Below are positions 21,321-62,158 of a stretch of 64,000 nucleotides of DNA, piece after piece (positions within the stretch are counted from its first letter, which is position 1; the number at the start of each line of letters is the position of its first letter). The DNA lies in the NCBI GenBank assembly GCA_963978545.1, contig OZ021731.1:29298593-29362592 (forward strand), written 5' to 3'. Made by a program: the position numbers and the translations under genes. The notes under the pieces are model-generated. The model saw nothing but the letters and a program-made list of their open reading frames with translations. It made no database searches and was not told the origin of the DNA. The DNA comes from Linyphia triangularis. Lineage: Eukaryota > Arthropoda > Arachnida > Araneae > Linyphiidae.

Positions 21321-21647
21321 GATTTTGATTTGCGTATAAATTGTTTTGATAAACCTAACCGCAATCATAAAATGGAAAAATTTGGTTTTGGTTTGGATGA
21401 TGTCCCTGGAACATGTGATCCAAATCTAACAAGTGTTCAAGAGACAAAAAGATTAGTTCTTCAAAGTTGTCTTCAATCACTATATCATGCAAGTGAATGT
21501 ATAGATGCGATTTGCCATTTTCCAAAGTGCCAACAAATGAAAATGATGTTGCGACATGCAAAGAGTTGCAAAATAAACATCAATGGTTGCTGTTCAATTT
21601 GCAAACCGTTTCTTAACATATGTTCTTACCATGCAATGTCTTGTGAG
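21321..21647 (+). CDS. CBP/p300-like exon 1: ZZ finger tail plus TAZ2 domain
   Basis: The exon is bounded by a pyrimidine-rich acceptor (TTTCTTACAG) and the donor GAG|GTAATT. It is 109 codons, phase 0 at both ends, with no stop. It begins DFDLRINCFDK then HKMEKFGFGLDD, matching the end of the CBP/p300 ZZ domain and the linker after it. It continues into TAZ2, a zinc-bound protein-interaction domain that binds transcription-factor activation domains in the nucleus. Zinc site 1 (H-x3-C-x4-C-x4-C: HASEC…C…C) and site 2 (HAKSC, then C-x7-C-x2-C ending CSIC) are complete. The His and first Cys of site 3 (HAMSC) are here; its last two Cys are in exon 2. Oddities: the ZZ tail has Arg where CBP has Cys (DLRINC for DLCINC), and NRNH where p300 has two His. 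So it may be a diverged paralogue rather than the sole nejire orthologue. Confidence 0.88.
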
Positions 21648-21740
21648 GTAATTAAGTTTATGACACTCCAAAATATGTCCACTAAAGGACTTGTCACGAT
21701 TGGTAAGACAAAACGATATGATGACAATATTATTTATTAG

Positions 21741-21910
21741 CAGACGATCACTCTTCGTTAGTTTTCACTAGAGTGGCGTCAAGACACCATATAATAGCAA
21801 ATGGTCATGCGCCAGAAGTCCCAATATGTCCAGCTTGTTTCGTTAGGATTGCTAACGGAAACTTGCTGTACGAATTGGCGGGATATCACTCGAAAAATGA
21901 TTTACGCAAT
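21741..21910 (+). other. Exon-like open segment of unknown identity
   Basis: A frame open from 21725 to beyond 21910 is GC-richer than its surroundings. It contains SSLVFTRVASRHHIIANG, then a CPAC pair (…VPICPACFVRI…) and LLYELAGYH. It has an AG at 21739-21740 and a strong donor-like AAT|GTATGT at 21910/21911. The phase (the frame needs one base from the previous exon) does not fit exon 1, which ends in phase 0. It could be an alternative exon, an inserted retroposed fragment or chance. I recognise no family. Confidence 0.3.
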
Positions 21911-23939
21911 GTATGTTACATCTGTAAGAATCTTAAGAATATAATGAACTATGTTATTTTACATTATATTTTCTTTCACTATAATTTTATTATACTTTTT
22001 AATTATTACATAATTTAAATAAAAGCAGATTATGTATTATAAGTTCACATAAATTTAAGCAGATTATTTTTGCTATAAAAATAATTTTAATATAGGAAGA
22101 ATGCAGCTTTCTGTGTCTAATTTACTTTTATATTTTTGCAGAGTATTTAAAAAAAAACAACTTAATATTGTATTACCATTAGCAGTTTCTTGTATATTAA
22201 AAAAGTAATTTTGCAATTGTAATCCGTATTAATTCTAGGTATTATGTTATTTATATTGAAAGTTGGATTTATCAAGTAAAAGTAAGGTGTATTCTCAATT
22301 GTTTGAGCTACTGTATCTCATGTATGGTAAGAAGACAAACACTTTAAATTGAAAATAAAAAATAAACATAACCTCTGTAATCAAAATTAAAAACCAACCA
22401 AGTTATCGGCGCTAAGGCCACAGGACAACATTAGTAGTTATTGAAATTACAGCTAAGAATTAATAAATAACAAAAAGTAAACAACGGGACAAAGGCATAT
22501 TTGTTGATTATAGTAAGCTTCGTCAGGGGGTGACTACCGTAATCAATGCCAGAATTCTAGAGTTTGTCTATATATGATATGACAAAAGCCTAAATAACAT
22601 ATTGTTATCCCAATCAAATCCATTTTGATACAAAAGAACGAGACAAGAGTTCAAAAGATAATTTATATTAATCCTTTTTAAAATAAGCTGTTATAACAAA
22701 AAATCTGAATTATAACAAAAAATCTGAATTATAAATACTAAAAAATCCCAATATAAACATAAGTATCTTCATTATTAAATATATGAATTTTAAAGGTAAC
22801 TGAACGTATTTGCTAGAATGAATCCACGTGGTTTGTGGCGCCATTTACGTCGCCAATATGAGCCAAAGTTCGCAAAACAGCCGGTGTCCGAGATAAATGT
22901 TTCCAATTAAAAGAATTGCAACAAATATACAAAAATATCTCGATATATTCATACATTAGACATTTCTACATTGAAATATATTCAAAAACTAGTATTTACG
23001 TAATTTTATATTAGCGATACTTGGGATTTAAAACCAGCTTCTTCGTCGCTCTATGTATTTGCAATGGAGTGAAAACTGAAAACCCCCCCAGTCGGTCTTT
23101 CTCGACAGGCTACTAATCACTGCGTCGATCCTTGTCGTCACTCTCCCCATATAGTCTCTAGTTTTCACTTTTCATACAATACAGAAATAAATAAAGTAAT
23201 TATAAATAATCCTTCACAGTTAATTATTTTTATACTTTTTTGGTCATCTATAAAATCAAATTTGATTTTTACCGGAACGTGAAGTAAACCAGCTCGGGAC
23301 ACTGGGATTTTGTCTGAAAACCGGGACTTCTTGCAAGCGTATGTATAGACACGATTATTTTTCTTCTTGCCTTGCTTTTTTGTCAACAGAAGATAGTAGA
23401 ACCCTAAATTCCTTAATATTTAAAATTGATTCCTTCAGATTTTTCGTTTTTATTAACCCTTTACAGTGCTGTGTTACAAATGTGCGACCAATTTATAGGC
23501 ATCCATAAGAGAAGAAGCTTAGATCCTATTCTTGATTTTTTATTTTGTACTTTCATTTTGACATTTTATTTAACACAAGTAACTGCGAGTGATATATGCG
23601 TTTTTGATTTACATTTGCATGTTTAATATAAATCAAATAAAGAATTGAAACATCTTCCTCCAAAAAAAATCTGAATGCGTTACTGCATACAACCAGATAA
23701 AAGATCGTAAAACATGCATTCCTGTAAAGGGTAAAATCCCAACGTCCCCTTCCCTAGCTGCGCCTATGGTCATAAAAAAAAGTTTTCTATGAAGTGACCA
23801 CTAAATTAAAAGTGTCTACTAGCCACAGGCTACTACTTGAAACTTTCAATTTTCAGGTCTACTTTCTTGTATATTTTCCCTTGGCTAATGCTTGGCAGCG
23901 GAAATTTAGATGCGATGAATTATGGCTCAATGATACAGG

Positions 23940-24347
23940 AATGAGGAACTTGCACAAGTGAGGAAAATGAATATTTTTTTGTATTTTCTAGTATTATCTA
24001 ACGAATATATTTGAGCAGTACAATTATTTTTTATCTTTATGCTTTTAATTAATCAAAAATCGAGTTTGAAATCAAAACAAAGGTCACGTAATAAAGAACA
24101 CATAAAATCGAAAATCGGAGGAGAAACCTCACTCATTCCTCATTTAAAACAGGTTTTAGACAAGTTCATCATCTGCGCATTGACGTCACACGCAAAAGCA
24201 GCTTTTTCCCGCCAAATCGCAAAGTTAAAAACTAAATAAATTTTTTTAACTATCTATCCGAGCTCAAATTTTTGAAAAATGGTTTTTCATGATTTTTTCC
24301 CTACTTTTATTTAAAAATAAAACCAAAAAACGTGAAAGTTCCTCATT
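23940..24347. mobile_element. MITE, possible hAT type, in intron 1
   Basis: AATGAGGAACTTGCAC at the left is mirrored by GTGAAAGTTCCTCATT at the right. Comparison with the homologous introns (CTCAATGATACAG followed directly by GGATTT…TTTGAGCACTT) gives a paralogous empty site. The flanking octamers GATACAGG and GATCAAGA may be a diverged 8 bp target duplication. No coding capacity; the short frame 24039-24239 inside it is not a gene. Confidence 0.65.
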
Positions 24348-25780: not shown

Positions 25781-26362
25781 AAAGTTATATGTCCTGTATT
25801 TTTTTGCCTGAATGTAAAGCGACAATTGGAACAATTTCCAAGAAGGCAAGTGCAAGCTATATTTCGTAAGCATCAACTCTCAGCTATGTGGTACAGGAGA
25901 ACATCTGATGCAGTATCTGGAAATTCTAATTCCAGTAGCCAGCCTTCACCTAGTGCTCAATCCGTTGCTTCACCTCATCTTCCACAGAAAGAAATAGATG
26001 TAAAACCTTCACCTGGACCTCCTGTTGATGCTTTACTGGCAGTTTTGCAAGTTCCAGGTGCAAGAAAAATTGCTCCATCAGGACCCAATCAAGACTTTAA
26101 ATTAGGTTTAGGATTAAATGATGATTCTCAAACACGTGATAAAAAGCAAACAATTCCTCAAGAGTGTAGAAGATTAACTATACCAAGATCTACTGAATTA
26201 CTTGTTCATGCATGTAATTGTACAGATGCTAAATGCTCATTTTCTAACTGCAATAAAATGAAAAGGGCATTGCTACATGAAAAGAGTTGCAAACAAGAAA
26301 CAAAATGCTGGTTACGCAAAAAGCTTACTGCCTTATGTTGTTGCCATTCAAAGGGTTGTCAG
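25781..26362 (+). CDS. CBP/p300-like exon 2: end of one TAZ2, linker, start of the next TAZ2 (long class)
   Basis: 194 codons, acceptor TTTTTGCAG, donor CAG|GTAATT, phase 0 at both ends. It opens KVICPVFFCLNVKRQLEQF, the CBP-like end of TAZ2. Its two Cys complete zinc site 3 begun in exon 1 (H-x3-C-x4-C-x4-C across the splice), followed by a basic helix. A Ser/Pro linker follows (NSNSSSQPSPSAQ), then PPVDALLAVLQVPGARK, which resembles the segment after TAZ2 in CBP. Next come KLGLGLNDD and a new TAZ2: site 1 HACNC…C…C intact, site 2 altered (HEKSC then C-x5-C, final Cys absent), site 3 started (HSKGC). This is the least derived copy, so the composite exon probably arose by joining post-TAZ2 sequence to a second TAZ2. 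Confidence 0.88.
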
Positions 26363-29631: not shown

Positions 29632-30123
29632 GAACGGGAATGCCCTGTACCATTTTGCCGAAATATAGACCCCAAATCCAAACAACAAGTTCGAAAAAGG
29701 GAATTGCTATCTAAAATTTCTAAACTACAAATTTCAGCTCTGAAGAACCCTGCAATATCTGTTGCGGTACCTGGAAATACTAATTCTAGTAGCCAGCCTT
29801 CTCCTAGTTCTCAATGTGTTGCTTCACCTCATCTTTCACAAAAAGAAATAGACATAAAACCTTTACCTGGACCTCCTGTTACTGCTTTACGAAGACGTGA
29901 TAAAAAGCAAACAATTACTCGAGAGTGTAGAAGATTATCTGTACCAAGATCTACTGAATTACTAGTTCATGCATGTAATTGCGCAGATGTTAAATGCCGG
30001 ATTTCTAACTGCAAGAAAATGAAAAGGGCATTGCTGCATGAAAAGAGATGCAAACAAGAAACCAACTGCCGATTACGCAAAAAGCTTACTGCCTTATGTC
30101 GTTGCCATGCAAAGGGTTGTCAG
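29632..30123 (+). CDS. CBP/p300-like exon 3: TAZ2 end, linker, TAZ2 start (short class)
   Basis: 164 codons, TTTTTGTAG|GAA acceptor, CAG|GTAATT donor, phase 0-0, no stop. It begins ERECPVPFCRN, completing zinc site 3 of the TAZ2 started in exon 2. The linker is shortened relative to exon 2: after PGPPVTAL it jumps to RRRDKKQ, a loss of about 31 codons that removes the KLGLGLNDD segment. TAZ2 site 1 is HACNCADVKCRISNC; site 2 is the altered HEKRC, C-x5-C form; site 3 starts HAKGC. It has one codon more than exons 4-7 near the start (NIDPKSK versus NNTGSK). The first Met-like codon inside the exon is not a start; the exon is internal. Confidence 0.86.
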
Positions 30124-33617: not shown

Positions 33618-34106
33618 GAAAGAGAATGCCCTGTACCATTTTGCCGAAATAACACTGGATCCAAACTGCAAGTTCAAAAAAGGGAACTGTTAGCTAAAAT
33701 TTCTAAACTACAAATTTCAGCTCAGCAGAACCCGGCAATATCTGCTGTTGTACCTGAAAATACTAATTCTAGTAGCCAGCCTTCTCCTAGTTCTCAATGT
33801 GTTGCTTCACCTCTTCTTTCACAAAAAGAAATAGACGTAAAACCTTTACCTGGACCTCCTGTTACTGTTTTACGAAGACGTGATAAAAAGCAAACAATTA
33901 CTCGAGAGTGTAGAAGATTATCTGTACCAAGATCTACTGAATTACTAGTTCATGCATGTAATTGCGCAGATGCTAAATGCCGGATTTCTAACTGCAAGAA
34001 AATGAAAAGGGCATTGCTGCATGAAAAGAGATGCAAACAAGAAACCAACTGCCGATTACGCAAAAAGCTTACTGCCTTATGTCGTTGCCATGCAAAGGGT
34101 TGTCAG
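33618..34106 (+). CDS. CBP/p300-like exon 4: TAZ2 end, linker, TAZ2 start (short class)
   Basis: 163 codons, TTTTTGTAG|GAA acceptor, CAG|GTAATT donor, phase 0-0, no stop. It begins ERECPVPFCRNN, which closes zinc site 3 of the previous TAZ2, then a basic stretch with KISKLQIS. Next come the Ser/Pro linker SSSQPSPSSQC, PGPPVTVLRRRDKKQ, and a TAZ2 with HACNCADAKCRISNC (site 1), HEKRCKQETNC (altered site 2) and HAKGCQ. It has no ATG or TTG at the place where its sisters do, so it is easily missed by start-codon-based scans, but the whole exon is open and splice sites are intact. It is the first exon of the 8.7 kb repeat units. Confidence 0.86.
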
Positions 34107-34684: not shown

Positions 34685-34688
<4 letters not shown>

Positions 34689-34734: not shown

Positions 34735-34738
<4 letters not shown>

Positions 34739-35198
34739 ATGAATTTTTCCACTGATGGCACAGTTTTTCAGATAAAAACTAGTATTTATTCTCTTCAGAA
34801 AACTCAAAAAATTTATTCACAGATTACAGTGCAATCACTATTAATCTTCAATAGAAGCTTCAACAAGAACAGCTTCGAATATAGCGATTATACAAGCTCA
34901 CTCCAATAGGTCAACAGAGCGATCGCGATCAGCTTTCAACGAAGTCCGAAGTCAATCTGAAAACTTTCCCTATCCCCGGTCTTTAAATACTTGGCGCGAG
35001 AGAATACTCGCAAAATTTCCAGCCAATTCGTCGGAAAAGAAACGTCTCGAAATTTCTCGATTGCTTTAGGTGTTGCCACCTTTTCCTAACCTGTATAATC
35101 GCTGTTAATAAAAAATAAAATAAGATAAAAATAAATTACAATAGAATTTTAAAATAATACGTCACTATTTACACTATATATAGACAATTTGTGCAACA
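34735..35198 (-). repeat. 3' LTR of gypsy copy 1
   Basis: 464 bp; on the reverse strand it starts TGTTGCACAAATTG and ends ATTCATAACA. Diagnostic states shared with the left LTRs of copies 2 and 3 are TTTTTCAGATAAAAACTA, CAATAGAAGC and a terminal CAACA. Confidence 0.93.
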
Positions 35199-35258
35199 TT
35201 TCCCCCTTCTTAAAGACTGCACGTCCCGGGCAGTGAAGTCCTTAAGAGGAAAGGCAAT

Positions 35259-38200
35259 TCAATCACTTCTACTATAATATGGGGCTAGTCTATTGTTATG
35301 TACAACTCTAGGTTTACAGTAGGGTGTCCGTTGAATCCTTACCACGATGTCTTTGATCTTCTTAAGGACCACATACGGCCCTTCGCAGTTCATCTGGAGC
35401 TTAGGGGAGAGTCCTTTCCGACGTTTAGGATTCCATAACCACACCTTGTCACCTTCCTGGAATGAACGTTCCGTGGCCTTGGCATCGTAGCGGACCTTCA
35501 TGCGCTCCGTCATGATGTTGATTCTTTCTCTGGCGAACCGATGTATGGCTTCCAAACGTGCCTGGAGATCATCTAGATACTGGATAGGCGAGGAAGGGGT
35601 GTCCGGTGGTCGTCCAAAGAGGAGGTCGCACGGTAGCCTAAGGTCTCTTCCAAAAATCATTTGAGATGGTGTATAGCAGGTGGTCTCGTGAGTAGCACTT
35701 CTGTAGGCCAAAAGGAATAGTGGAAGTTTCTGATCCCAATCTTGCTGGTTCTTGGAAACAAACAAGGAGAGATGATTCAGAATCGTTCTATTAAAGCGTT
35801 CGACCCTTCCATCGGATTGTGGGTGCAGAGGAGTTGTATGAGTCTTTTCCATGTCGAGCAAGTCACACAGCCCAGTGAAGACAGCAGAGTTAAAGTTCGT
35901 CCCCTGGTCGGAATGTATCAGCAGGGGTACGCCAAATCGGGAGATCCAGTTCTGTACGAGAACTTCTGCTACGGTTGTGGCTTCCTGGTCCGGGATCGCG
36001 TATGCTTCTGGCCACTTGCTAAAGTAGTCCATGACAACTAGGATGTATTTGTTGCCATTAGTTGTGTGAGATAGGGGGCCTAAAACGTCCAAAGCAATTC
36101 TTTCGAATGGTGTTCCTACGTTGTAACGTTGCAACTTTCCACGAGTTCGGGTCTTCGGTCCCTTCCGCGAATTGCATGCATCGCAGGACTTGCACCACTT
36201 CTCCACGTCGGACTTTGCTTTGTCCCAGAAGAATCTTTCCCTGACTTTCTGAAGAGTTTTCGTGATACCAAAATGTCCTCCAGTAGAGCTGCTGTGAAGT
36301 TCTTCTAGAATGTTGGTAACTCTAGAACTTGGAAGGATTAATTGCCACCGGAAGCTTTTGCCATCATCGGACTCCCATCGACGGTAGAGTACTCCATTTT
36401 TCAAGTGCAAAGAGTCCCACATAGCCCAATATATCTTCATTGCTGGGCTATAGCGTGCAATTTCCTGCCAACTGGGTTTTCCGGTAGCTGCTTCCATGAA
36501 TTCAATTAGAGGTTTCAAGTCCTGATCTTCGACCTGACTTTTTCGGACATTCTGATCACTCCAAGGATCTACGTCTGAAGTAGTTGACTTGGAAGTTATT
36601 TTACGAACGGCAGATGCGGTTGTCCCAAACTTTGACTCCGCATTGGAACAAAATCGGCAATTCTCCGGACATGGTCTTCTGGAAAGAGCGTCTGCATTCC
36701 CATGGGACGTTCCTTTTCTGTGACGGATATCCATGTCATACTCCTGTAGGCGCTGGATCCACCTTGCTATTTGTCCCTCTGTATTCTTGAAATTCAGCAA
36801 CCAAGTCGGAGACGCATGATCAGTTCTTAAAAGGAATTTTCGCCCTTACAAGTAATGATGAAAGTGCTCAACGGCTTTTACTATTGCCAGTAACTCCTTT
36901 CTTGTGACGCAGTAGTTCCACTCGGATCTTGACAGGCTCTTACTAAAATAAGCGATGACTTTCTCCTGTCCTTCAATTTCCTGGGAAAGAACGGCGCCCA
37001 CTCCCTCATTGCTGGCATCGGTATCCAGAATAAAGTCCTTGTTAACATCGGGAAAAGCCAAAACAGGCGCGGATATTAAAGCGTTCTTCAGTTGATTGAA
37101 GGAGTCGTCACAGTCGGCAGTCCACAGGAACTTCTGCTTGCTCTCTGTTAGTCGATGCAAAGGTCTGGCGATCTTGGAGAATCCCTTCACAAATCTACGG
37201 TAATACGTGCACAGGCCTAGGAAGCTTCGCAATTGATGAACGTCTTGCTGTCGAGACCAAATTTGCACAGCATGGATCTTGGCTGGATCTGTGCTCACTC
37301 CATCGGATGAGATGATGTGTCCGAGATAACTGACTTTCCGCCTAAAGAGCTTACATTTTGATGGGCTAAGTTTCAAGTGGGCTTCCCTAAGCTTCAAGAA
37401 CACGTTCTTTACGTTTTGCAAGTGCTGATCAAAACTCCGCCCGGTGATAATGATATCGTCCAAATATACCAGACAGGTCTCGTAGGAAAGTCCTCTAAGT
37501 ACAGTCTCCATTAGTCGCTCGAACGTAGCCGGTGCATTACACAAGCCAAACGGCATAACTTGAAACTGCCATAATCCTTGTCCGGTAGTGAAGGCCGTCT
37601 TCTCACGATCGTCGGGATGAATTTCCACTTGCCAGTATCCACTCGTCAAATCCAAAGTCGAAAACCACTGGTTCCCCGATAGAGTGTCCAAAGTGTCATC
37701 AATTCTTGGCAGAGGGTAGCTGTCCTTTTGCGTAATTTCGTTCAGCTTCCGGTAATCCACACAAAACCTGGTGGAACCATCCTTCTTTCGAACGAGTACG
37801 ATTGGAGAGGCCCATGGACTTGAGGAGGGTTCGATAACTCTATTATCTTCCATTTCATGTAACAGTTTCCCGACCTCCTCTTGTTTTGCGAAATGAAGCC
37901 TTCGAGGATGTTGTTTAATAGGTAAAAGGGTCCCAGTGTCGATTCGATGTTGAGTAAGCTTTGTTCTTCCCACATCTTTCGATGATACGGAGAAAATGTC
38001 TTGAAATTCTTTTATAAGGTTTCCGACAATCTTCTCTTGTCTTCTTTCCAACCGGGAGTCCTCGAGAAGCTGGTCCACTAAATCCGAGGATGGTGCGGTC
38101 GGAAGCTCCTTCGATCCTCGTTCGATGCTTGTAACAGGTGTGCAAGTGGCAATTTCTTCTCCCTTCTTGATAACTCTTGTAGAATCACCGATGTTGGCCA

Positions 38201-38748
38201 TTCTCACATGCACCACCTCTTGAGAGAGATCCACAAGCGTCGCTCCTACTAGCACTCCTTTCGTCACACTATTCGATGACGGGAAGTCCGTTACTCCAAA
38301 TCGGAAGGCCTTCGAGAGCTCTGCTGAACCCTTTACAACCAAATCTGTCATGGAGGGGATGGTGATGTCTTCAAGAGCTACTATTCGACATGCACACGGC
38401 TCTTCCGAGTCCAAACCGAACAATGGAACTTCTTCTTTCCCTGTTTGAAACTCGCCTTTCTCGAAATTCAAAGTAATTCCATTTTTTTTTAAGAAATCCA
38501 GTCCATGGGTCAATAATTTCAGCGACGTAAACGGTATGAGTGTTGGTGTGAAATCCAAAAGAGATGTTGACATTTAATTTCCCATGCACAGAAATTTTAT
38601 CACCAGTCACAGTTTGTAGTGAAACTGAAGGCGCCGTGTAAAGGGGTTGGCTGTCCAGGCGCCGGGCTACATCCGTCCGTAAGATGGTTACATTTGCCCC
38701 TGAGTCAACTATTAGACGACAGGGAGTTCCATTGATCTTGCCCAACAC
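35259..38748 (-). pseudogene. Gypsy pol pseudogene, copy 1
   Basis: Protease lies at 38748-38371 (active-site LIVDSGANVTIL). A shift of frame near 38485 leads into 38573-36846, with RT motifs RFCVDYRKLNE, the catalytic VYLDDI, and the first part of RNase H (DTDASNEGVGAVL). A TAA at about 36846-36848 replaces the Tyr codon present in the other two copies. The frame resumes at 36800-35259 with the rest of RNase H, the HHCC-type zinc finger (H…H…CKSCDAC), the integrase D-D-E core (LDVLGPL, HSDQGTNF, GRVERFNR) and a GPY-like module (CEGPYVV). Gene order and motifs are those of 412/mdg1-like gypsy elements. Unlike copies 2 and 3 it lacks the TGA near 47050. Confidence 0.93.
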
Positions 38749-38885
38749 GAATAAACCATGGTTTCCTCCTTGAAGGGATGAGATGTGATAGAGGCTGAGG
38801 CGGTTTCTTGGCAGGCTTTCATTCCAGCAAGCATTTCCAGCAACTGCTTCATTTGGTCTTCCATCATTCCTCTAGTAGTCGGCAT
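38712..38885 (-). pseudogene. Gag N-terminal stub, copy 1
   Basis: A 57-codon frame begins MPTTRGMMEDQMKQLLEM just inside the primer-binding site and runs out of frame into protease sequence. Full elements of this type carry several hundred gag codons between these points, so an internal deletion has fused the gag start to the protease region. The identical arrangement occurs at 47388-47561 and 56116-56289. Confidence 0.75.
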
Positions 38886-38898
38886 TCAAGATGACTTG

Positions 38899-38916
38899 AT
38901 CCCACTTCTGACACCA
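38899..38916 (-). promoter_or_regulatory. Primer-binding site of gypsy copy 1 (tRNA-Leu type)
   Basis: The reverse strand reads TGGTGTCAGAAGTGGGAT one base after the 5' LTR. As I remember it, this is complementary to the 3' end of a eukaryotic tRNA-Leu (…ATCCCACTTCTGACA plus CCA). Exact equivalents lie at 47575-47592 and 56303-56320. Confidence 0.8.
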
Positions 38917-38917
38917 C

Positions 38918-39385
38918 TGTTATGAATTTTTCCACTGAGGCAATGATGGCACAGTTTTCACGGTTTAAAAATATTTATTCTCTCTTCAGAAAACTCACAA
39001 AATTTATTCACAGATAACAGTGCAATCACTATTAATCTTCAATACAAGCTTCAACAAGAACAGCTTTGAATATAGCGATTATACAAGCTCACTCCAATAG
39101 GTCAACAGAGCGATCGCGATCAGCTTTCAACGAAGTCCGAAGTCAATCTGAAAACTTTCCCTATCGCCGGTCTTTAAATACTTGGCGCGAGAGAATATTC
39201 GCGAAATTTCCAACCAATTCGTCGGAAAAGAAACGTCTCGAAATTTCTCGATTGCTTTAGGTGTTGCCACCTTTTCCTAACCTGTATAATCGCTGTTAAT
39301 AAAAAATAAAATAAGATAAAAATAAATTACAATAGAATTTTAAAATAATACATCACTATTTACACTATATACAGACAATTTGTGC

Positions 39386-39389
<4 letters not shown>
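38918..39389 (-). repeat. 5' LTR of gypsy copy 1
   Basis: 472 bp. It differs from the 3' LTR by a GAGGCAATGATGG versus GATGG indel, CACGGTTTAAAAATA in place of CAGATAAAAACTAGTA, CAATACAAGC, and a terminal CAATA. The same differences mark the right LTRs of copies 2 and 3. Confidence 0.92.
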
Positions 39390-39424
<35 letters not shown>

Positions 39425-43410: not shown

Positions 43411-43874
43411 TGTTATGAATTTTTCCACTGATGGCACAGTTTTTCAGATAAAAACTATTATTTATTCTCTTTAGAAAACTCAAAAAATTCATTCACAGAT
43501 AACAGTGCAATCACTATTAATCTTCAATAGAAGCTTCAAAAAGAACAGCTTCGAATATAGCGATTATACAAGCTCACTCCAATAGGTCAACAGAGCGATC
43601 GCGATCAGCTTTCAACGAAGTCCGAAGTCAATCTGAAAACTTTCCCTATCCCCGGTCTTTAAATACTTGGCGCGAGAGAATATTCGCGAAATTTCCAACC
43701 AATTCGTCGGAAAAGAAACGTCTCGAAATTTCTCGATTGCTTTAGGTGTTGCCACCTTTTCCTAACCTGTATAATCGCTGTTAATAAAAAATAAAATAAG
43801 ATAAAAATAAATTACAATAGAATTTTAAAATAATACGTCACTATTTACACTATATATAGACAATTTGTGCAACA
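43411..43874 (-). repeat. 3' LTR of gypsy copy 2
   Basis: 464 bp with the left-type diagnostic bases at its ends, but the inner segment GAGAATATTCGCGAAATTTC…CAACC matches right-type LTRs, while copies 1 and 3 have ATACTCGCAAAATTTCC…AGCC there. This looks like a gene-conversion patch. Confidence 0.9.
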
Positions 43875-43934
43875 TTTCCCCCTTCTTAAAGACTGCACGT
43901 CCCGGGCAGTGAAGTCCTTAAGAGGAAAGGCAAT

Positions 43935-46900
43935 TCAATCACTTCTACTATAATATGGGGCTAGTCTATTGTTATGTACAACTCTAGGTTTACAGGAGGG
44001 TGTCCGTTGAATCCTTACCACGATGTCTTTGATCTTCTTAAGGACCACATACGGCCCTTCCCAGTTCGTCTGGAGCTTAGGGGAGAGTCCTTTCTGACAT
44101 TTAGGATTCCATAACCACACCTTGTCACCTTCCTGGAATGAACGTTCCGTGGCCTTGGCATCGTAGCGGACCTTCATGCGCTCCGTCATGATGTTGATTC
44201 TTTCAGTGGCGAACCGATGTATGGCTTCCAAACGTGCCTGGAGATCATCTAGATACTGGATAGGCGAGGAAGGGGTGTCGGGTGGTCGTCCAAAGAGGAG
44301 GTCGCAGGGTAGTCTAAGGTCTCTTCCAAAAATCATTTGAGATGGTGTATAGCTGGTGGTCTCGTGAGTAGCACTTCTGTAGGCCAAAAGGAATAGTGGA
44401 AGTTTCTGATCCCAATCTTGCTGGTTCTTGGAAACAAACAAGGAGAGATGATTCAGAATCGTTCTATTAAAGCGTTCGACCCTTCCATCGGATTGTGGGT
44501 GCAGAGGAGTTGTACGAGTCTTTTCCATGTCGAGCAAGTCACACAGCCCAGTGAAGACAGCAGAGTTAAAGTTCGTCCCCTGGTCGGAATGTATCAGCAG
44601 GGGTACGCCAAATCGGGAGATCCAGTTCTGTACGAGAACTTCTGCTACGGTTGTGGCTTCCTGGTCCGGGATCGCGTATGCTTCTGGCCACTTGCTAAAG
44701 TAGTCCATGACAACTAGGATGTATTTGTTGCCATTAGTTGTGTGAGATAGGGGGCCTAAAACGTCCAAAGCAATTCTTTTGAATCGTGTTCCTACGTTGT
44801 AACGTTGCAACTTTCCACGAGTTCGGGTCTTCGGTCCCTTCCGCGAATTGCATGCATCGCAGGACTTGCACCACTTCTCCACGTCGGACTTTGCTTTGTC
44901 CCAGAAGAATCTTTCCCTGACTTTCTGAAGAGTTTTCGTGATACCAAAATGTCCTCCAGTAGAGCTGCTGTGAAGTTCTTCTAGAACGTTGGTAACTCTA
45001 GAACTTGGAAGGATTAATTGCCACCGGAAGCTTTTGCCATCATCGGACTCCCATCGACGGTAGAGTACTCCATTTTTCAAGTGCAAAGAGTCCCACATAG
45101 CCCAATATATCTTCATTGCTGGGCTATAGCGTGCAATTTCCTGCCAACTGGGTTTTCCGGTAGCTGCTTCCATGAATTCAATTAGAGGTTTCAAGTCCTG
45201 ATCTTCGACCTGACTTTTTCGGACATTCTGATCACTCCAAGGATCCACGTCTGAAGTAGTTGACTTGGAAGTTATTTTACGAACGGCAGATGCGGTTGTC
45301 CCAAACTTTGACTCCGCATTGGAACAAAATCGGCAATTCTCCGGACATGGTCTTCTGGAAAGAGCGTCTGCATTCCCATGAGACGTTCCTTTTCTGTGAC
45401 GGATATCCATGTCATACTCCTGTAGGCGCTGGATCCACCTTGCTATTTGTCCCTCTGTATTCTTGAAATTCAGCAACCAAGTCAGAGACGCATGATCAGT
45501 TCTTAAAAGGAATTTTCGGCCGTACAAGTAATGATGAAAGTGCTCAACGGCTTTTACTATTGCCAGTAACTCCTTTCTTGTGACGCAGTAGTTCCGCTCG
45601 GATCTTGACAGGCTCTTACTAAAATAAGCGATGACTTTCTCCTGTCCTTCAATTTCCTGGGAAAGAACGGCGCCCACTCCCTCATTGCTGGCATCTGTAT
45701 CCAAAATGAAGTCCTTGTTAACATCGGGAAAAGCCAAAACAGGCGCGGATATTAAAGCGTTCTTCAGTTGATTGAAGGAGTCGTCACAGTCGGCAGTCCA
45801 CAGGAACTTCTGCTTGCTCTCTGTTAGTCGATGCAAAGGTCTGGCGATCTTGGAGAATCCCTTCACAAATCTACGGTAATACGTGCACAGGCCTAGGAAG
45901 CTTCGCAATTGATGAACGTCTTGCGGTCGAGACCAAATTTGCACAGCATGGATCTTGGCTGGATCTGTGCTCACTCCATCGGATGAGATGATGTGTCCGA
46001 GATAACTGACTTTCCGCCTAAAGAGCTTACATTTTGATGGGCTAAGTTTCAAGTGGGCTTCCCTAAGCTTCAAGAACACGTTCTTTACGTTTTGCAAGTG
46101 CTGATCAAAACTCCGCCCGGTGATAATGATATCGTCCAAATATACCAGACAGGTCTCGTAGGAAAGTCCTCTAAGTACAGTCTCCATTAGTCGCTCGAAC
46201 GTAGCCGGTGCATTACACAAGCCAAACGGCATAACTTGAAACTGCCATAATCCTTGTCCGGTAGTGAAGGCCATCTTCTCACGATCGTCGGGATGTATCT
46301 CCACTTGCCAGTATCCACTCTTCAAATCCAAAGTCGAAAACCACTGGTTCCCCGATAGAGTGTCCAAAGTGTCATCAATTCTTGGCAGAGGGTAGCTGTC
46401 CTTTTTCGTAATTTCGTTCAGCTTCCGGTAATCCACACAAAACCTGGTGGAACCATCCTTCTTTCGAACGAGTACGATTGGAGAGGCCCATGGACTTGAG
46501 GAGGGTTCGATAACTCTATTATCTTCCATTTCATGTAACAGTTTCCCGACCTCCTCTTGTTTTGCGAAATGAAGCCTTCGAGGATGTTGTTTAATAGGTA
46601 AAAGGGTCCCAGTGTCGATTCGATGTTGAGTAAGCTTTGTTCTTCCCACATCTTTCGATGATACGGAGAAAATGTCTTGAAATTCTTTTATAAGGTTTCC
46701 GACAATCTTCTCTTGTCTTCTTTCCAACCGGGAGTCCTCGAGAAGCTGGTCCACTAAATCCGAGGATGGTGCGGTCGGAAGCTCCTTCGATCCTCGTTCG
46801 ATGCTTGTAACAGGTGTGCAAGTGGCAATTTCTTCTCCCTTCTTGATAATTCTTGTAGAATCACCGATGTTGGCCATTCTCACATGCACCACCTCTTGAG

Positions 46901-47424
46901 AGAGATCCACAAGCGTCGCTCCTACTAGCACTCCTTTCGTCACACTATTCGATGACGGGAAGTCCGTTACTCCAAATCGGAAGGCCTTCGAGAGCTCTGC
47001 TGAACCCTTTACAACCAAATCTGTCATGGAGGGGATGGTGATGTCTTCAAGAGCTACTATTCAATATGCACACGGCTCTTCTGAGTCCAAACCGAACAAT
47101 GGAACTTCTTCTTTCCCTGTTTGAAACTCGCCTTTCTCGAAATTCAAAGTAATTCCATTTTTCTTTAAGAAATCCAGTCCATGGGTCAATAATTTCAGCG
47201 ACGTAAACGGTATGAGTGTTGGTGTGAAATCCAAAAGAGATGTTGACATTTAATTTCCCATGCACAGAAATTTTATCACCAGTCACAGTTTGTAGTGAAA
47301 CTGAAGGCGCCGTGTAAAGGGGTTGGCTGTCCAGGCGCCGGGCTACATCCGTCCGTAAGATGGTTACATTTGCCCCTGAGTCAACTATTAGACGACAGGG
47401 AGTTCCATTGATCTTGCCCAACAC
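43935..47424 (-). pseudogene. Gypsy pol pseudogene, copy 2
   Basis: Protease lies at 47424-47047 (LIVDSGANVTIL). Then an open frame of 1030 codons (47027-43935) covers RT (RFCVDYRKLNE near residue 200, VYLDDI near 300), RNase H (DTDASNEGV; RTDHAS; HRKGTSHGNADALSRR), integrase (zinc finger CKSCDAC; LDVLGPL, HSDQGTNF, GRVERFNR) and a WEGPYVV module, ending NRLAPYYSRSD. Two breaks lie upstream: the protease/RT frame shift common to all copies, and an in-frame TGA just before 47050 where copy 1 has CGA, a CpG-type C-to-T change shared with copy 3. The long open frame is a strong sign of recent duplication, not proof of activity. Confidence 0.93.
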
Positions 47425-47593
47425 GAATAAACCATGGTTTCCTCCTTGAAGGGATGAGATGTGATAGAGGCTGAGGCGGTTTCTTGGCAGGCTTTCATTC
47501 CAGCAAGCATTTCCAGCAACTGCTTCATTTGGTCTTCCATCATTCCTCTAGTAGTCGGCATTCAAGATGACTTGATCCCACTTCTGACACCAC

Positions 47594-48059
47594 TGTTATG
47601 AATTTTTCCACTGAGGCAATGATGGCACAGTTTTCACGGTTTAAAAGTATTTATTCTCTTCAGAAAACTCACAAAATTTATTCACAGATAACAGTGCAAT
47701 CACTATTAATCTTCAATACAAGCTTCAACAAGAACAGCTTTGAATATAGCGATTATACAAGCTCACTCCAATAGGTCAACAGAGCGATCGCGATCAGCTT
47801 TCAACGAAGTCCGAAGTCAATCTGAAAACTTTCCCTATCGCCGGTCTTTAAATACTTGGCGCGAGAGAATATTCGCGAAATTTCCAACCAATTCGTCGGA
47901 AAAGAAACGTCTCGAAATTTCTCGATTGCTTTAGGTGTTGCCACCTTTTCCTAACCTGTATAATCGCTGTTAATAAAAAATAAAATAAGATAAAAATAAA
48001 TTACAATAGAATTTTAAAATAATACATCACTATTTACACTATATACAGACAATTTGTGC

Positions 48060-48063
<4 letters not shown>
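47594..48063 (-). repeat. 5' LTR of gypsy copy 2
   Basis: 470 bp, right-type diagnostic states (GAGGCAATGATGG, CACGGTTTAAAAGTA, terminal CAATA). It abuts the longest AT tract of the window (48064-48150). Confidence 0.92.
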
Positions 48064-48152
<89 letters not shown>

Positions 48153-51053: not shown

Positions 51054-51542
51054 GAAAGAGAATGCCATGTACCATTTTGCCGAAATAACACTGGATCCAA
51101 ACAGCAAGTTCAAGAAAGGGAATTGTTAGCTAAAATTTCTAAACTACAAATTTCAGCTCAGCAGAACCCGGCAATATCTGCTGTTGTACCTGAAAATACT
51201 AATTCTAGTAGCCAGCCTTCTCCTAGTTCTCAATGTGTTGCTTCACCTCTTCTTTCACAAAAAGAAATAGACGTAAAACCTTTACCTGGACCTCCTGTTA
51301 CTGCTTTACGAAGACGTGATAAAAAGCAAACAATTACTCGAGAGTGTAGAAGATTATCTGTACCAAGATCTACTGAATTACTAGTTCATGCATGTAATTG
51401 CGCAGATGCTAAATGCCGGATTTCTAACTGCAAGAAAATGAAAAGGGCATTGCTGCATGAAAAGAGATGCAAACAAGAAACCAACTGCCGAATACGCAAA
51501 AAGCTTACTGCCTTATGTCGTTGCCATGCAAAGGGTTGTCAG
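51054..51542 (+). CDS. CBP/p300-like exon 6: TAZ2 end, linker, TAZ2 start (short class)
   Basis: 163 codons, phase 0-0, acceptor TTTTTGTAG, donor CAG|GTAATT, no stop. The predicted peptide equals that of exon 5 (ERECHVPFC … HEKRCKQETNCRIRK … HAKGCQ), so these are the most recent pair in the array. The context is the same: hAT MITE about 300 bp upstream, gypsy about 600 bp downstream. Confidence 0.86.
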
Positions 51543-52141: not shown

Positions 52142-52602
52142 TGTTATGAATTTTTCCACTGATGGCACAGTTTTTCAGATAAAAACTATTATTTATTCTC
52201 TTTAGAAAACTCAAAAAATTCATTCACAGATAACAGTGCAATCACTATTAATCTTCAATAGAAGCTTCAACAAGAACAGCTTCGAATATAGCGATTATAC
52301 AAGCTCACTCCAATAGGTCAACAGAGCGATCGCGATCAGCTTTCAACGAAGTCCGAAGTCAATCTGAAAACTTTCCCTATCCCCGGTCTTTAAATACTTG
52401 GCGCGAGAGAATACTCGCAAAATTTCCAGCCAATTCGTCGGAAAAGAAACGTCTCGAAATTTCTCGATTGCTTTAGGTGTTGCCACCTTTTCCTAACCTG
52501 TATAATCGCTGTTAATAAAAAATAAAATAAGATAAAAATAAATTACAATAGAATTTTAAAATACGTCACTATTTACACTATATATAGACAATTTGTGCAA
52601 CA
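52142..52602 (-). repeat. 3' LTR of gypsy copy 3
   Basis: 461 bp; left-type diagnostics. It carries the ATACTCGCAAAATTTCCAGCC segment like copy 1, and a 3 bp deletion near its end (AAAATACGTCACT for AAAATAATACGTCACT). Confidence 0.92.
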
Positions 52603-52662
52603 TTTCCCCCTTCTTAAAGACTGCACGTCCCGGGCAGTGAAGTCCTTAAGAGGAAAGGCAAT

Positions 52663-55600
52663 TCAATCACTTCTACTATAATATGGGGCTAGTCTATTGT
52701 TATGTACAACTCTAGGTTTACAGGAGGGTGTCCGTTGAATCCTTACCACGATGTCTTTGATCTTCTTAAGGACCACATACGGCCCTTCCCAGTTCGTCTG
52801 GAGCTTAGGGGAGAGTCCTTTCTGACATTTAGGATTCCATAACCACACCTTGTCACCTTCCTGGAATGAACGTTCCGTGGCCTTGGCATCGTAGCGGACC
52901 TTCATGCGCTCCGTCATGATGTTGATTCTTTCTCTGGCGAACCGATGTATGGCTTCCAAACGTGCCTGGAGATCATCTAGATACTGGATAGGCGAGGAAG
53001 GGGTGTCGGGTGGTCGTCCAAAGAGGAGGTCGCAGGGTAGTCTAAGGTCTCTTCCAAAAATCATTTGAGATGGTGTATAGCAGGTGGTCTCGTGAGTAGC
53101 ACTTCTGTAGGCCAAAAGGAATAGTGGAAGTTTCTGATCCCAATCTTGCTGGTTCTTGGAAACAAACAAGGAGAGATGATTCAGAATCGTTCTATTAAAG
53201 CGTTCGACCCTTCCATCGGATTGTGGGTGCAGAGGAGTTGTACGAGTCTTTTCCATGTCGAGCAAGTCACACAGCCCAGTGAAGACAGCAGAGTTAAAGT
53301 TCGTCCCCTGGTCGGAATGTATCAGCAGGGGTACGCCAAATCGGGAGATCCAGTTCTGTACGAGAACTTCTGCTACGGTTGTGGCTTCCTGGTCCGGGAT
53401 CGCGTATGCTTCTGGCCACTTGCTAAAGTAGTCCATGACAACTAGGATGTATTTGTTGCCATTAGTTGTGTGAGATAGGGGGCCTAAAACGTCCAAAGCA
53501 ATTCTTTCGAATCGTGTTCCTACGTTGTAACGTTGCAACTTTCCACGAGTTCGGGTCTTCGGTCCCTTCCGCGAATTGCATGCATCGCAGGACTTGCACC
53601 ACTTCTCCACGTCGGACTTTGCTTTGTCCCAGAAGAATCTTTCCCTGACTTTCTGAAGAGTTTTCGTGATACCAAAATGTCCTCCAGTAGAGCTGCTGTG
53701 AAGTTCTTCTAGAACGTTGGTAACTCTAGAACTTGGAAGGATTAATTGCCACCGGAAGCTTTTGCCATCATCGGACTCCCATCGACGGTAGAGTACTCCA
53801 TTTTTCAAGTGCAAAGAGTCCCACATAGCCCAATATATCTTCATTGCTGGGCTATAGCGTGCAATTTCCTGCCAACTGGGTTTTCCGGTAGCTGCTTCCA
53901 TGAATTCAATTAGAGGTTTCAAGTCCTGATCTTCGACCTGACTTTTTCGGACATTCTGATCACTCCAAGGATCCACGTCTGAAGTAGTTGACTTGGAAGT
54001 TATTTTACGAACGGCAGATGCGGTTGTCCCAAACTTTGACTCCGCATTGGAACAAAATCGGCAATTCTCCGGACATGGTCTTCTGGAAAGAGCGTCTGCA
54101 TTCCCATGGGACGTTCCTTTTCTGTGACGGATATCCATGTCATACTCCTGTAGGCGCTGGATCCACCTTGCTATTTGTCCCTCTGTATTCTTGAAATTCA
54201 GCAACCAAGTCAGAGACGCATGATCAGTTCTTAAAAGGAATTTTCGGCCATACAAGTAATGATGAAAGTGCTCAACGGCTTTTACTATTGCCAGTAACTC
54301 CTTTCTTGTGACGCAGTAGTTCCGCTCGGATCTTGACAGGCTCTTACTAAAATAAGCGATGACTTTCTCCTGTCCTTCAATTTCCTGGGAAAGAACGGCG
54401 CCCACTCCCTCATTGCTCGCATCTGTATCCAAAATGAAGTCCTTGTTAACATCGGGAAAAGCCAAAACAGGCGCGGATATTAAAGCGTTCTTCAGTTGAT
54501 TGAAGGAGTCGTCACAGTCGGCAGTCCACAGGAACTTCTGCTTGCTCTCTGTTAGTCGATGCAAAGGTCTGGCGATCTTGGAGAATCCCTTCACAAATCT
54601 ACGGTAATACGTGCACAGGCCTAGGAAGCTTCGCAATTGATGAACGTCTTGCGGTCGAGACCAAATTTGCACAGCATGGATCTTGGCTGGATCTGTGCTC
54701 ACTCCATCGGATGAGATGATGTGTCCGAGATAACTGACTTTCCGCCTAAAGAGCTTACATTTTGATGGGCTAAGTTTCAAGTGGGCTTCCCTAAGCTTCA
54801 AGAACACGTTCTTTACGTTTTGCAAGTGCTGATCAAAACTCCGCCCGGTGATAATGATATCGTCCAAATATACCAGACAGGTCTCGTAGGAAAGTCCTCT
54901 AAGTACAGTCTCCATTAGTCGCTCGAACGTAGCCGGTGCATTACACAAGCCAAACGGCATAACTTGAAACTGCCATAATCCTTGTCCGGTAGTGAAGGCC
55001 ATCTTCTCACGATCGTCGGGATGTATCTCCACTTGCCAGTATCCACTCTTCAAATCCAAAGTCGAAAACCACTGGTTCCCCGATAGAGTGTCCAAAGTGT
55101 CATCAATTCTTGGCAGAGGGTAGCTGTCCTTTTTCGTAATTTCGTTCAGCTTCCGGTAATCCACACAAAACCTGGTGGAACCATCCTTCTTTCGAACGAG
55201 TACGATTGGAGAGGCCCATGGACTTGAGGAGGGTTCGATAACTCTATTATCTTCCATTTCATGTAACAGTTTCCCGACCTCCTCTTGTTTTGCGAAATGA
55301 AGCCTTCGAGGATGTTGTTTAATAGGTAAAAGGGTCCCAGTGTCGATTCGATGTTGAGTAAGCTTTGTTCTTCCCACATCTTTCGATGATACGGAGAAAA
55401 TGTCTTGAAATTCTTTTATAAGGTTTCCGACAATCTTCTCTTGTCTTCTTTCCAACCGGGAGTCCTCGAGAAGCTGGTCCACTAAATCCGAGGATGGTGC
55501 GGTCGGAAGCTCCTTCGATCCTCGTTCGATGCTTGTAACAGGTGTGCAAGTGGCAATTTCTTCTCCCTTCTTGATAATTCTTGTAGAATCACCGATGTTG

Positions 55601-56152
55601 GCCATTCTCACATGCACCACCTCTTGAGAGAGATCCACAAGCGTCGCTCCTACTAGCACTCCTTTCGTCACACTATTCGATGACGGGAAGTCCGTTACTC
55701 CAAATCGGAAGGCCTTCGAGAGCTCTGCTGAACCCTTTACAACCAAATCTGTCATGGAGGGGATGGTGATGTCTTCAAGAGCTACTATTCAATATGCAGA
55801 CGGCTCTTCTGAGTCCAAACCGAACAATGGAACTTCTTCTTTCCCTGTTTGAAACTCGCCTTTCTCGAAATTCAAAGTAATTCCATTTTTCTTTAAGAAA
55901 TCCAGTCCATGGGTCAATAATTTCAGCGACGTAAACGGTATGAGTGTTGGTGTGAAATCCAAAAGAGATGTTGACATTTAATTTCCCATGCACAGAAATT
56001 TTATCACCAGTCACAGTTTGTAGTGAAACTGAAGGCGCCGTGTAAAGGGGTTGGCTGTCCAGGCGCCGGGCTACATCCGTCCGTAAGATGGTTACATTTG
56101 CCCCTGAGTCAACTATTAGACGACAGGGAGTTCCATTGATCTTGCCCAACAC
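52663..56152 (-). pseudogene. Gypsy pol pseudogene, copy 3
   Basis: Protease lies at 56152-55775, then a 1030-codon frame at 55755-52663. It has the same domain order as copy 2 (RT, RNase H, zinc finger, integrase core, GPY-like module) and keeps the catalytic motifs VYLDDI, HSDQGTNF and GRVERFNR. It shares the TGA before the long frame and the protease/RT frame break. It differs from copy 2 by a handful of residues (e.g. RFERIALD, HRFARERIN, THETTCYTP), where it agrees with copy 1, so copy 2 is the derived one at these sites. Confidence 0.93.
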
Positions 56153-56321
56153 GAATAAACCATGGTTTCCTCCTTGAAGGGATGAGATGTGATAGAGGCT
56201 GAGGCGGTTTCTTGGCAGGCTTTCATTCCAGCAAGCATTTCCAGCAACTGCTTCATTTGGTCTTCCATCATTCCTCTAGTAGTCGGCATTCAAGATGACT
56301 TGATCCCACTTCTGACACCAC

Positions 56322-56789
56322 TGTTATGAATTTTTCCACTGAGGCAATGATGGCACAGTTTTCACGGTTTAAAAATATTTATTCTCTCTTCAGAAAACTC
56401 ACAAAATTTATTCACAGATAACAGTGCAATCACTATTAATCTTCAATACAAGCTTCAACAAGAACAGCTTTGAATATAGCGATTATACAAGCTCACTCCA
56501 ATAGGTCAACAGAGCGATCGCGATCAGCTTTCAACGAAGTCCGAAGTCAATCTGAAAACTTTCCCTATCGCCGGTCTTTAAATACTTGGCGCGAGAGAAT
56601 ATTCGCGAAATTTCCAACCAATTCGTCGGAAAAGAAACGTCTCGAAATTTCTCGATTGCTTTAGGTGTTGCCACCTTTTGCTAACCTGTATAATCGCTGT
56701 TAATAAAAAATAAAATAAGATAAAAATAAATTACAATAGAATTTTAAAATAATACATCACTATTTACACTATATACAGACAATTTGTGC

Positions 56790-56793
<4 letters not shown>
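56322..56793 (-). repeat. 5' LTR of gypsy copy 3
   Basis: 472 bp, right-type diagnostics (GAGGCAATGATGG, CACGGTTTAAAAATA, terminal CAATA), next to an AT tract of about 41 bp. Confidence 0.92.
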
Positions 56794-56836
<43 letters not shown>

Positions 56837-59745: not shown

Positions 59746-60234
59746 GAAAGAGAATGCTCTGTACCATTTTGCCGAAATAACACTGGATCCAAACTGCAAG
59801 TTCAAAAAAGGGAATTGTTAGCTAAAATTTCTAAACTACAACTTTCAGCTCAGCAGAACCCGGCAATATCTGCTGTTGTACCTGGAAATACTAATTCTAG
59901 TAGCCAGCCTTCTCCTAGTTCTCAATGTGTTGCTTCACCTCTTCTTTCACAAAAAGAAATAGACATAAAACCTTTACCTGGACCTCCTGTTACTGCTTTA
60001 CGAAGACGTGATAAAAAGCAAACAATTACTCGAGAGTGTAGAAGATTATCTGTACCAAGATCTACTGAATTACTAGTTCATGCATGTAATTGCGCAGATG
60101 CTAAATGCCGGATTTCTAACTGCAAGAAAATGAAAAGGGCATTGCTGCATGAAAAGAGATGCAAACAAGAAACCAACTGCCGATTACGCAAAAAGCTTAC
60201 TGCCTTATGTCGTTGCCATGCAAAGGGTTGTCAG
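59746..60234 (+). CDS. CBP/p300-like exon 7: TAZ2 end, linker, TAZ2 start (short class)
   Basis: 163 codons, phase 0-0, no stop, TTTTTGTAG acceptor and CAG|GTAATT donor. It begins ERECSVPFC (Ser for the first Pro, zinc Cys kept), then KISKLQLSAQQNP, PGNTNSSSQPSPSSQC, EIDIKPLPGPPVTALRRRDKKQ, HACNCADAKCRISNC, HEKRCKQETNCRLRK, HAKGCQ. It lacks the downstream gypsy; its intron is cut short by a deletion. Confidence 0.86.
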
Positions 60235-60631: not shown

Positions 60632-61246
60632 CAGGCCCTGATCATCGCCTAGGCCCACAAGGCCCGTCCTTGGGCCCCGAAATTGGCCTTAAACCATTTT
60701 TGTTTCACAAAATCTATGTGAATATCTTTTATAACTTGTATAAAATAATTTTTACACAAAAATCATTTCGTATTGATCTTGAACCACCTTTAGAATCCCA
60801 GAGTGTATTTATTCAAATAAACCGTTTAAAAGCGTGAAACACAAGCTTTTTTGAAAGATAGAGGGGAAAAAAAATTGACAGGTAATCTTGACGAATTTAT
60901 AGTGAGATCAGCAAATGTCGACTCTGAAGTTGTGAATAATGCTGCAGATATTGTCGTCACAGATATACACCATTGTTTTAGTGAAATGCAACGCTATACA
61001 TGACAAAGTTTTTCCTTATTTGATTTATAAATTTGATTGTTTGAAATTTGTTTCTTTATTTATGATAAAAAAAAAAAAAAAAACTTTTAAAAAACAATAT
61101 TAACACTAATTCATCAACTTTTTCTATATTTCATGTTAATTCATTTGACTTTGTGTCGAGTCCATTTGCAATAAATCACTCGTTTGAAAAAAGGGCCCCG
61201 GAATGTGTCAGGGCCTTGGGCCCCAACTTTTCATGATCGGGACCTG
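60632..61246 (+). mobile_element. hAT-type MITE (CAGGGCCTG family), unit 8 copy
   Basis: Begins CAGGCCCTGATCATCGCC; the duplication is TCTGCATC on both sides (60624-60631, 61247-61254), the ancestral state of the site that the other four copies show changed on the right. Confidence 0.9.
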
Positions 61247-61309
61247 TCTGCATCTAAATTTTATTTTTTTAAACCCCTTTCATTCGCCCTTAGGTTTTTT
61301 TTTTACAAA

Positions 61310-61475
61310 AGTTGCTTTTACATGCTACAAAGGTCATTTTTCTAGCTACTAAACTTGTTTTTACCTGCTCCGAAAGTCATTTTTCCTGCTCCAAAACTTA
61401 ATTTTACCTGCTCCGAGAGACATTTTTCCTGCTCCAAAACTTGATTTTTTCTGCTCCAAATCTCTCTGAGTGAGT
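61310..61475. repeat. Imperfect tandem repeat of a ~40 bp CTGCTCC unit
   Basis: Alternating words TTTTTCCTGCTCCAAAACTT and TTTTACCTGCTCCGAAAGTCA repeat about three times, each half-unit 20-22 bp. The block is absent from the other introns of the array. Confidence 0.75.
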
Positions 61476-61576
61476 GGGAGCCCTGGGATATGCTACTGGT
61501 ATATTTATAATGTTGTTTTGAAAGTATTTCTATGCACACTTCTGGTTTATATTCTAAAATCTCTTAATTTTTGTAG

Positions 61577-62158
61577 GAAAGAGAATGCCCTGTATCATTT
61601 TGCCGAAATAACACTGGATCCAAACAGCAAGTTCAAGAAACGGAATTGCTAGTTAAATTTTTTAAACTATATATTTCAACTAAGAAGAATCCTGTAGTAT
61701 CTGCTGCTGTACCTGGAAATTCTAATTCTAGTAGCCAGCCTTCTCCTAGTGCTCAATGTATTGCTCCACCTCATCTTGCACAGGAAGAAATAGATGTAAA
61801 ATCTTCACTTGGATCTCCTGTTGGTGCTTTACAGGCAGTTCTGCAAGTTCCAGCTGCAAGAAAAACTGCCCCATCCGGACCCAACCAAGACGTTAAATTA
61901 GGTTTTGGATTAAATGATGATTTACGAATACGTGATATAAAGCAAAGAATTCCTCAAGAGTGTAGAAGATTAACTATACCAAGTTCTACTGAATTACTTG
62001 TTCATGCATGTAATTGTACAAATGCTAAATGCTCATTTTCTTACTGCAATAAAATGAAAAGGACATTGCTACATAAAAAGAGCTGCAAACAAGAAACCGA
62101 CTGCCGATTACTCAAAAAGCTTACTGCCTTATGTCGTTGCCATGCAAAGGGTTGTCAG
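61577..62158 (+). CDS. CBP/p300-like exon 8: TAZ2 end, linker, TAZ2 start (long class)
   Basis: 194 codons, phase 0-0, no stop, TTTTTGTAG acceptor and CAG|GTAATT donor. It begins ERECPVSFCRNN. It keeps the long linker: PVGALQAVLQVPAARKTAP and KLGFGLNDD, as in exon 2. TAZ2 site 1 is HACNCTNAKCSFSYC, site 2 HKKSCKQETDC (altered form), site 3 starts HAKGC. The start of the exon (NNTGSKQQVQE) is like exons 4-7 while the second half is like exon 2, so it looks like a recombinant. The exon that would finish its third zinc site lies beyond the window. Confidence 0.86.

Follow-up and report, generated by a model that had tools for sequence, protein, structure and literature searches.

The coactivators CBP and p300 (KAT3; nejire in flies) are limiting for many activators and carry a single TAZ2 domain in the CH3 region besides a histone acetyltransferase (HAT) domain, a bromodomain, KIX and TAZ1. 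Two reports describe TAZ domains as four-helix bundles containing three zinc atoms (PMC12547938) and TAZ2 of CBP/p300 as a docking site for many activation domains which also holds back the HAT in cis, an effect relieved by activator binding (PMC12547938, PMC10475075); a third gives the ordinary domain order for decapod CBP (PMC12897451). In contrast, a window of 64,000 nucleotides on contig C12 of the spider Linyphia triangularis (G000:C12:29298593-29362592, within a 1.35-Gb assembly) harbours a tandem array of exons which shares the TAZ2 domain with CBP/p300 and predicts eight TAZ2-like modules, while none of the other CBP/p300 domains was detected. The mitochondrial contig of the assembly reads as COX1 under the invertebrate code, with a motif resembling that of spiders. 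We incline moderately towards regarding this locus on C12 as a rapidly evolving coding gene, derived from the 3'-terminal part of a CBP gene, which would encode a HAT-less multi-TAZ2 protein.

The naked mole-rat 'histone acetyltransferase p300-like' protein (P0001, 407 amino acids) resembles the array in having more than one TAZ2 domain in series and no HAT in a Pfam scan, but consists of two ZZ-TAZ2 units (two zf-TAZ and two ZZ stretches), whereas the array possesses eight TAZ2 modules without a complete ZZ. Being mammalian, P0001, the cluster of which has nine member sequences, presumably arose independently of the array; it is a precedent for TAZ2 doubling outside a full CBP. Solved TAZ2 structures of p300/CBP (e.g. 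3t92, 5hp0 and 3p57) represent a single module, the chains of which are matched by both array modules compared (15 distinct sequences each; best E 6e-21 and 5e-28). The original prediction, made from the letters of the window, knew of no description of a multi-TAZ2 protein, and none is found in the titles and abstract beginnings of the literature listed on TAZ2 duplication, spider CBP, CBP retrogenes and p300-like proteins.

Exon structure and homology to CBP

All eight plus-strand exons of the original prediction, open, multiples of three in length and of phase 0-0, were recovered with identical coordinates, frames and lengths (Table 1). None contains a stop codon, the other five frames contain 3 to 18 stops each, and all eight exons combine an AG acceptor with an end in (G/C)AG followed by GTAATTAA (GTAATT donors). 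Exon 1 had been predicted to continue from a ZZ-finger tail into TAZ2 as in CBP/p300; it is a copy of an entire CBP exon. Its codon 18, an ATG preceded by A at -3 and followed by G at +4, may represent the start methionine.

The ordinary CBP gene of the same genome, located on contig C14, possesses the same phase-0 intron inside TAZ2 as the array and homologous intron sequence. Its penultimate exon ends within TAZ2 after ...YHAKHCQ and its last exon begins with EGKCPVPFC. Exon 1 of the array corresponds to the penultimate exon, exons 2 to 8 to last- and penultimate-exon sequence fused in frame and a further exon, exon 9, to the start of the last exon. In exon 2, homology to the C14 penultimate exon extends from 26099 onwards and homology to the last exon ends earlier, near 26062-26077.

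Exon 9 was recognized upon comparison of the exon 4 protein with the genome, which gave 15 matches from 17 scored candidates including an extra copy at C12:29364377. Behind the acceptor TTTTTATAG, 60 open codons starting with EKECPVPFC encode the closing part of TAZ2; the TGA at 65965-65967 coincides with a 45-nucleotide deletion in the last-exon sequence and is followed, 136 nucleotides on, by AATAAA at 66103. As exon 9 completes the last module and provides a stop, the array has an end; it comprises eight TAZ2 modules, every one of which is completed by the exon that follows. The predicted exon logic, in which exons 2 to 8 each close one TAZ2 and open another, is strengthened by this terminal exon as well as by the frame-constraint tests below.

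Spliced in silico, exons 1 to 9 would encode 1,373 amino acids from the start of exon 1 or 1,356 from the first methionine, with eight TAZ2-like modules connected by linkers of 89-120 residues; exons 3 to 7 have a deletion of about 93 nucleotides in common, and exons 2 and 8 keep the long linker. The Pfam family zf-TAZ (PF02135) recognizes eight stretches in the spliced protein (E 9e-65) and each of the eight exons singly. In a whole-genome search with this family, all 12 scored candidates lie above the curated cut-off, namely the eight array exons, two on C14 and two on contig C8. The array modules are 53-58% identical to the C14 TAZ2 and have a net charge of +6 to +13 versus +13.

The locus lies apart from both the C14 gene and an intronless CBP frame on C8. 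Parts of the array introns can be aligned with the CBP intron of C14 (66-78% identity), which identifies the array as a DNA-level copy; a processed retrocopy of CBP is ruled out, as CBP intron sequence is kept between the array exons. A whole-genome-duplication ohnolog of CBP is ruled out by the low synonymous divergence (dS), and no other CBP exons were found nearby: dS by the NG86 method is 0.15-0.41 between array copies and C14, and saturated or 1.4 between C8 and C14.

A CBP gene with repeated TAZ2 exons, preceded by HAT and bromodomain exons, had been envisaged; the locus is instead a partial copy, separated from the CBP gene and lying on a different contig. A genome-wide HAT search (eight candidates scored) gave four matches, one on C8 and three on C14, and none on C12, so that the HAT_KAT11 domain of a CBP/p300 coactivator (KAT3) was not detected at the array locus. 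By tblastn with the 2382-residue C8 CBP against 144 kb of C12 (E up to 0.01), TAZ2, part of ZZ (exon 1) and last-exon sequence were recovered, and no bromodomain, KIX, TAZ1 or complete ZZ; no other CBP exon, the HAT and bromodomain exons included, was found by this search in the 61 kb that precede exon 1 or in the 40 kb downstream of the window.

The C8 frame (G000:C8:82291598-82298743, minus strand, loci L009/L010) spans 2382 codons with two zf-TAZ matches and a HAT, and with KIX, bromodomain and ZZ recognized by eye. Together with C14 it shows a background ratio of non-synonymous to synonymous substitution rates (omega) of 0.06-0.09 in the TAZ2 region, and it is probably a second working CBP of retrogene origin.

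Regarding the origin of the array, homology shows that a genomic segment reaching from the CBP penultimate exon through the adjoining intron into the first part of the last exon was copied to C12. On the simplest account, this segment was then duplicated in tandem, head to tail, with a breakpoint in either exon, whereby last- and penultimate-exon sequence became fused in frame. Any further unequal crossover would insert one exon that completes the TAZ2 before it and begins another. As TAZ2 is split by the intron in phase 0, every such crossover would add one whole in-frame TAZ2.

Reading-frame constraint, zinc sites and substitution rates

The array segments show 51-80 nucleotide differences from C14 per TAZ2 or closing segment, yet neither a stop nor a frameshift occurs in exons 1 to 8. 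In neutral simulations on the fitted trees, with the C14 sequence as root and base frequencies entered by hand, 0 of 4000, 0 of 2000 and 0 of 4000 replicates (the third set with branches cut to 0.7) were stop-free, and the mean numbers of stops summed over copies were 46, 47 and 37, as compared to none observed in exons 1 to 8 plus the 60 codons that exon 9 contributes. Taken by itself, exon 1 would remain stop-free with a chance of 0.02-0.05. Insertions and deletions (indels) likewise respect the frame: seven distinct events in exons 1 to 8 are all multiples of three, as counted by eye on codon-based alignments (in frame by construction) and plain DNA alignments and omitting a 17-nucleotide gap in exons 2 and 8, taken as the end of C14 homology, and the 45-nucleotide deletion of exon 9, versus 11 of 37 in five less redundant intron segments, where 26 are not multiples of three (Fisher p 0.0008). 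Among the 69 indels in 13 intron segments, 51 have lengths not divisible by three. Lower divergence near the acceptors than deep in the introns was considered as evidence for splicing and dropped, since constraint acting only on C14 could account for it.

With respect to zinc binding, we take the TAZ2 ligand pattern to be three HCCC sites with 12 ligands in total. All 12 ligands are present in module 1, and each of the eight modules retains every ligand of sites 1 and 3, with two of the four site-3 ligands provided by the next exon. The chance of ligand retention in stop-free neutral simulations (5000 replicates, tests picked after the pattern was seen) is 0.0098 for exon 1 including site 2, 0.0078 for exons 2, 3 and 8 and 0.0126 for the closing cysteine pair. 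Of the predicted multi-TAZ2 protein, the eight zf-TAZ stretches in the spliced sequence hold; modules 2 to 8 are altered TAZ2 domains that have lost one site-2 ligand. Cumulatively, the absence of stops, the frame-keeping indels and the retained zinc sites lead us to infer a fast-evolving coding gene, with a translated, fast-changing protein rather than a dead copy as its probable product.

The amino acids of the array nevertheless change at about the neutral rate. Under the codon model GY94, omega on the array branches is 1.04 for the TAZ2 part (p 0.89 versus 1), 0.73 for the closing part plus linker (p 0.13) and 0.83 for both combined (p 0.28), versus 0.06-0.09 on the C14 and C8 branches. 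MG94 variants give 1.39-1.76 and 0.97-1.38, where one of eight fits has a p below 0.05 (p 0.03), with omega above 1. In comparison with C14, third codon positions differ least in all eight array comparisons, whereas third positions dominate in C8. Positive selection was considered, as the NG86 non-synonymous divergence exceeds dS for exon 1 versus the composite exons (1.44-1.93) and one MG94 fit is significant; since GY94 disagrees, no such claim is made.

Several observations weigh against a coding gene of this kind. Across models and segments omega ranges from 0.73 to 1.76 without a clear departure from 1, and none of the three GY94 fits reaches p < 0.05; decay looks alike. In modules 2 to 8 the last cysteine of site 2 is replaced by R or L, accompanied by a two-residue deletion, and as exons 3 to 7 are near copies of each other, the retention of sites 1 and 3 in eight of eight modules does not amount to eight independent cases. 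An AlphaFold model of one composite exon, which is not a spliced module, has a predicted local distance difference test score (pLDDT) of 43.7 from a six-row alignment and is uninformative as to a four-helix bundle. Neither a 5' exon nor a promoter nor a transcript is known for the array. Finally, no protein of array architecture by Pfam labels was seen among the protein-database matches, of which 4 of 22 matched sequences were examined; queries of 630, 163 and 1373 residues gave 15, 0 and 7 matches at E 0.001, 0.01 and 0.001, with the best 7994 and 7988 candidates by shared words scored for the 630- and 1373-residue queries.

Alternatively, the CBP tail could have been copied, multiplied through unequal crossing-over and left to drift, with the open frames as leftovers. 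An omega near 1, the missing site-2 ligand in modules 2 to 8, the lack of a HAT match on C12 and of a known 5' exon, and the 98% identity of the array units that bear an element assigned by eye to the Ty3/gypsy type, as expected with passive amplification, would all fit such a non-functional duplication. It is nonetheless unlikely in view of exons 1 to 8 free of stops and frameshifts despite their divergence from C14, of the site 1 and site 3 ligands kept throughout and of a terminal exon completing the final module.

The locus might alternatively be expressed with a choice of exons, where any subset of the phase 0-0 internal exons is included and a family of one- to eight-module proteins arises instead of a single long product. 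Exons 2 to 8 are symmetric and interchangeable in frame, and exon 1 joined straight to exon 9 already makes one TAZ2; we consider this variant doubtful as well.

An assembly artefact, that is a smaller duplication collapsed or over-expanded, is suggested by the identity of exons 5 and 6 and the 98.2% identity of their 8.7-kb units and is very improbable, as exons 1, 2, 3, 8 and 9 are clearly distinct, linker length varies and the units with long terminal repeats (LTRs) are 1.8-2.3% different; doubt over the assembly concerns only the exact number of short-form units.

Possible function in activator recruitment

If the locus is a coding gene, its product could bind multiple transactivation domains or CBP HAT cores simultaneously and would compete with or titrate CBP recruitment. 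The most likely effect of the HAT-less chain would be to draw activators away from CBP or to occupy the HAT cores of both catalytic CBPs. Tentatively, a wider proposal is put forward, in which a new gene has acquired a self-extending exon structure, each unequal crossover adds or removes exactly one docking domain in frame, eight diversifying modules compete in trans with CBP, either for activators or for the HAT core of CBP itself, and the copy number can be tuned by recombination.

Should the coding-gene reading be correct, a natural many-TAZ2 protein would provide a ready test of activator-coactivator titration by avidity. The array would equally illustrate a simple route from a single-copy domain to an extensible array, by breakpoints inside the two exons flanking a domain-splitting intron.

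Feature coordinates, unit duplication and mobile elements

Table 1. Features of the TAZ2 exon array and of the related CBP gene; positions refer to the window unless a contig is named.
Feature	Coordinates	Strand	Description
5' edge of detected homology to C14 CBP	21292..21320	+	29 nt of intron including exon 1 acceptor; blastn alignment starts at 21292
Exon 1	21321..21647	+	327 nt; copy of whole CBP penultimate exon: half ZZ and opening part of TAZ2 module 1
Exon 2	25781..26362	+	582 nt; composite, closes module 1 and opens module 2; long linker form
Approximate fusion point, exon 2 (homologous points in exons 3-8)	26098..26099	+	last-exon joined in frame to penultimate-exon sequence
Exon 3	29632..30123	+	492 nt; composite, short linker form
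Exon 4	33618..34106	+	489 nt; composite, short form
LTR element, first copy	34735..39391	-	intron after exon 4; LTRs 34735-35200 and 38918-39391, 93.7% identical; minus-strand open reading frames
Exon 5	42323..42811	+	489 nt; composite, short form
LTR element, second copy	43411..48065	-	intron after exon 5; LTR pair 94.3% identical
Exon 6	51054..51542	+	489 nt; composite, short form; no difference from exon 5
LTR element, third copy	52142..56795	-	intron after exon 6; LTR pair 92.8% identical
Exon 7	59746..60234	+	489 nt; composite, short form
Exon 8	61577..62158	+	582 nt; composite, long form; closed by terminal exon 9 beyond the window
Exon 9 (terminal)	65785-65967 (window frame); G000:C12:29364377 onward		1.8 kb past the window; closes eighth TAZ2, then stop
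Intron-bearing CBP gene	C14, TAZ1 near 66.720 Mb to last exon near 66.634 Mb	-	

The second of the 8.7-kb units is 97.7% identical to the first and the third 98.2% to the second. As the two LTRs of each element are only 93-94% identical, a single insertion would have preceded the tripling of the unit, which gives a relative date; the element was probably inserted once and the unit tripled afterwards. In trees that carry no support values, the TAZ2 half of exon 8 clusters with exon 2 and its closing half with exons 3 to 7, a split grouping that suggests recombination between units.

With respect to a fusion with an upstream host gene, 6 of 98 plus-strand open reading frames of at least 60 amino acids were scanned with Pfam, which gave one match over the cut-off and did not show such a fusion. 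About 42 kb upstream of exon 1, a plus-strand match to PF13725 (tRNA_bind_2) is located at -21275 to -21057 in the window frame (L017), in an open frame which is presumably NAT10-like. Within the window, an open frame at 27756-28052, in the intron after exon 2, resembles by eye the C-terminus of a hAT transposase, and 9096-10886 holds, again by eye, what is left of the ORF2 of a non-LTR retrotransposon, interrupted by a stop and including reverse transcriptase and RNase H-like sequence.

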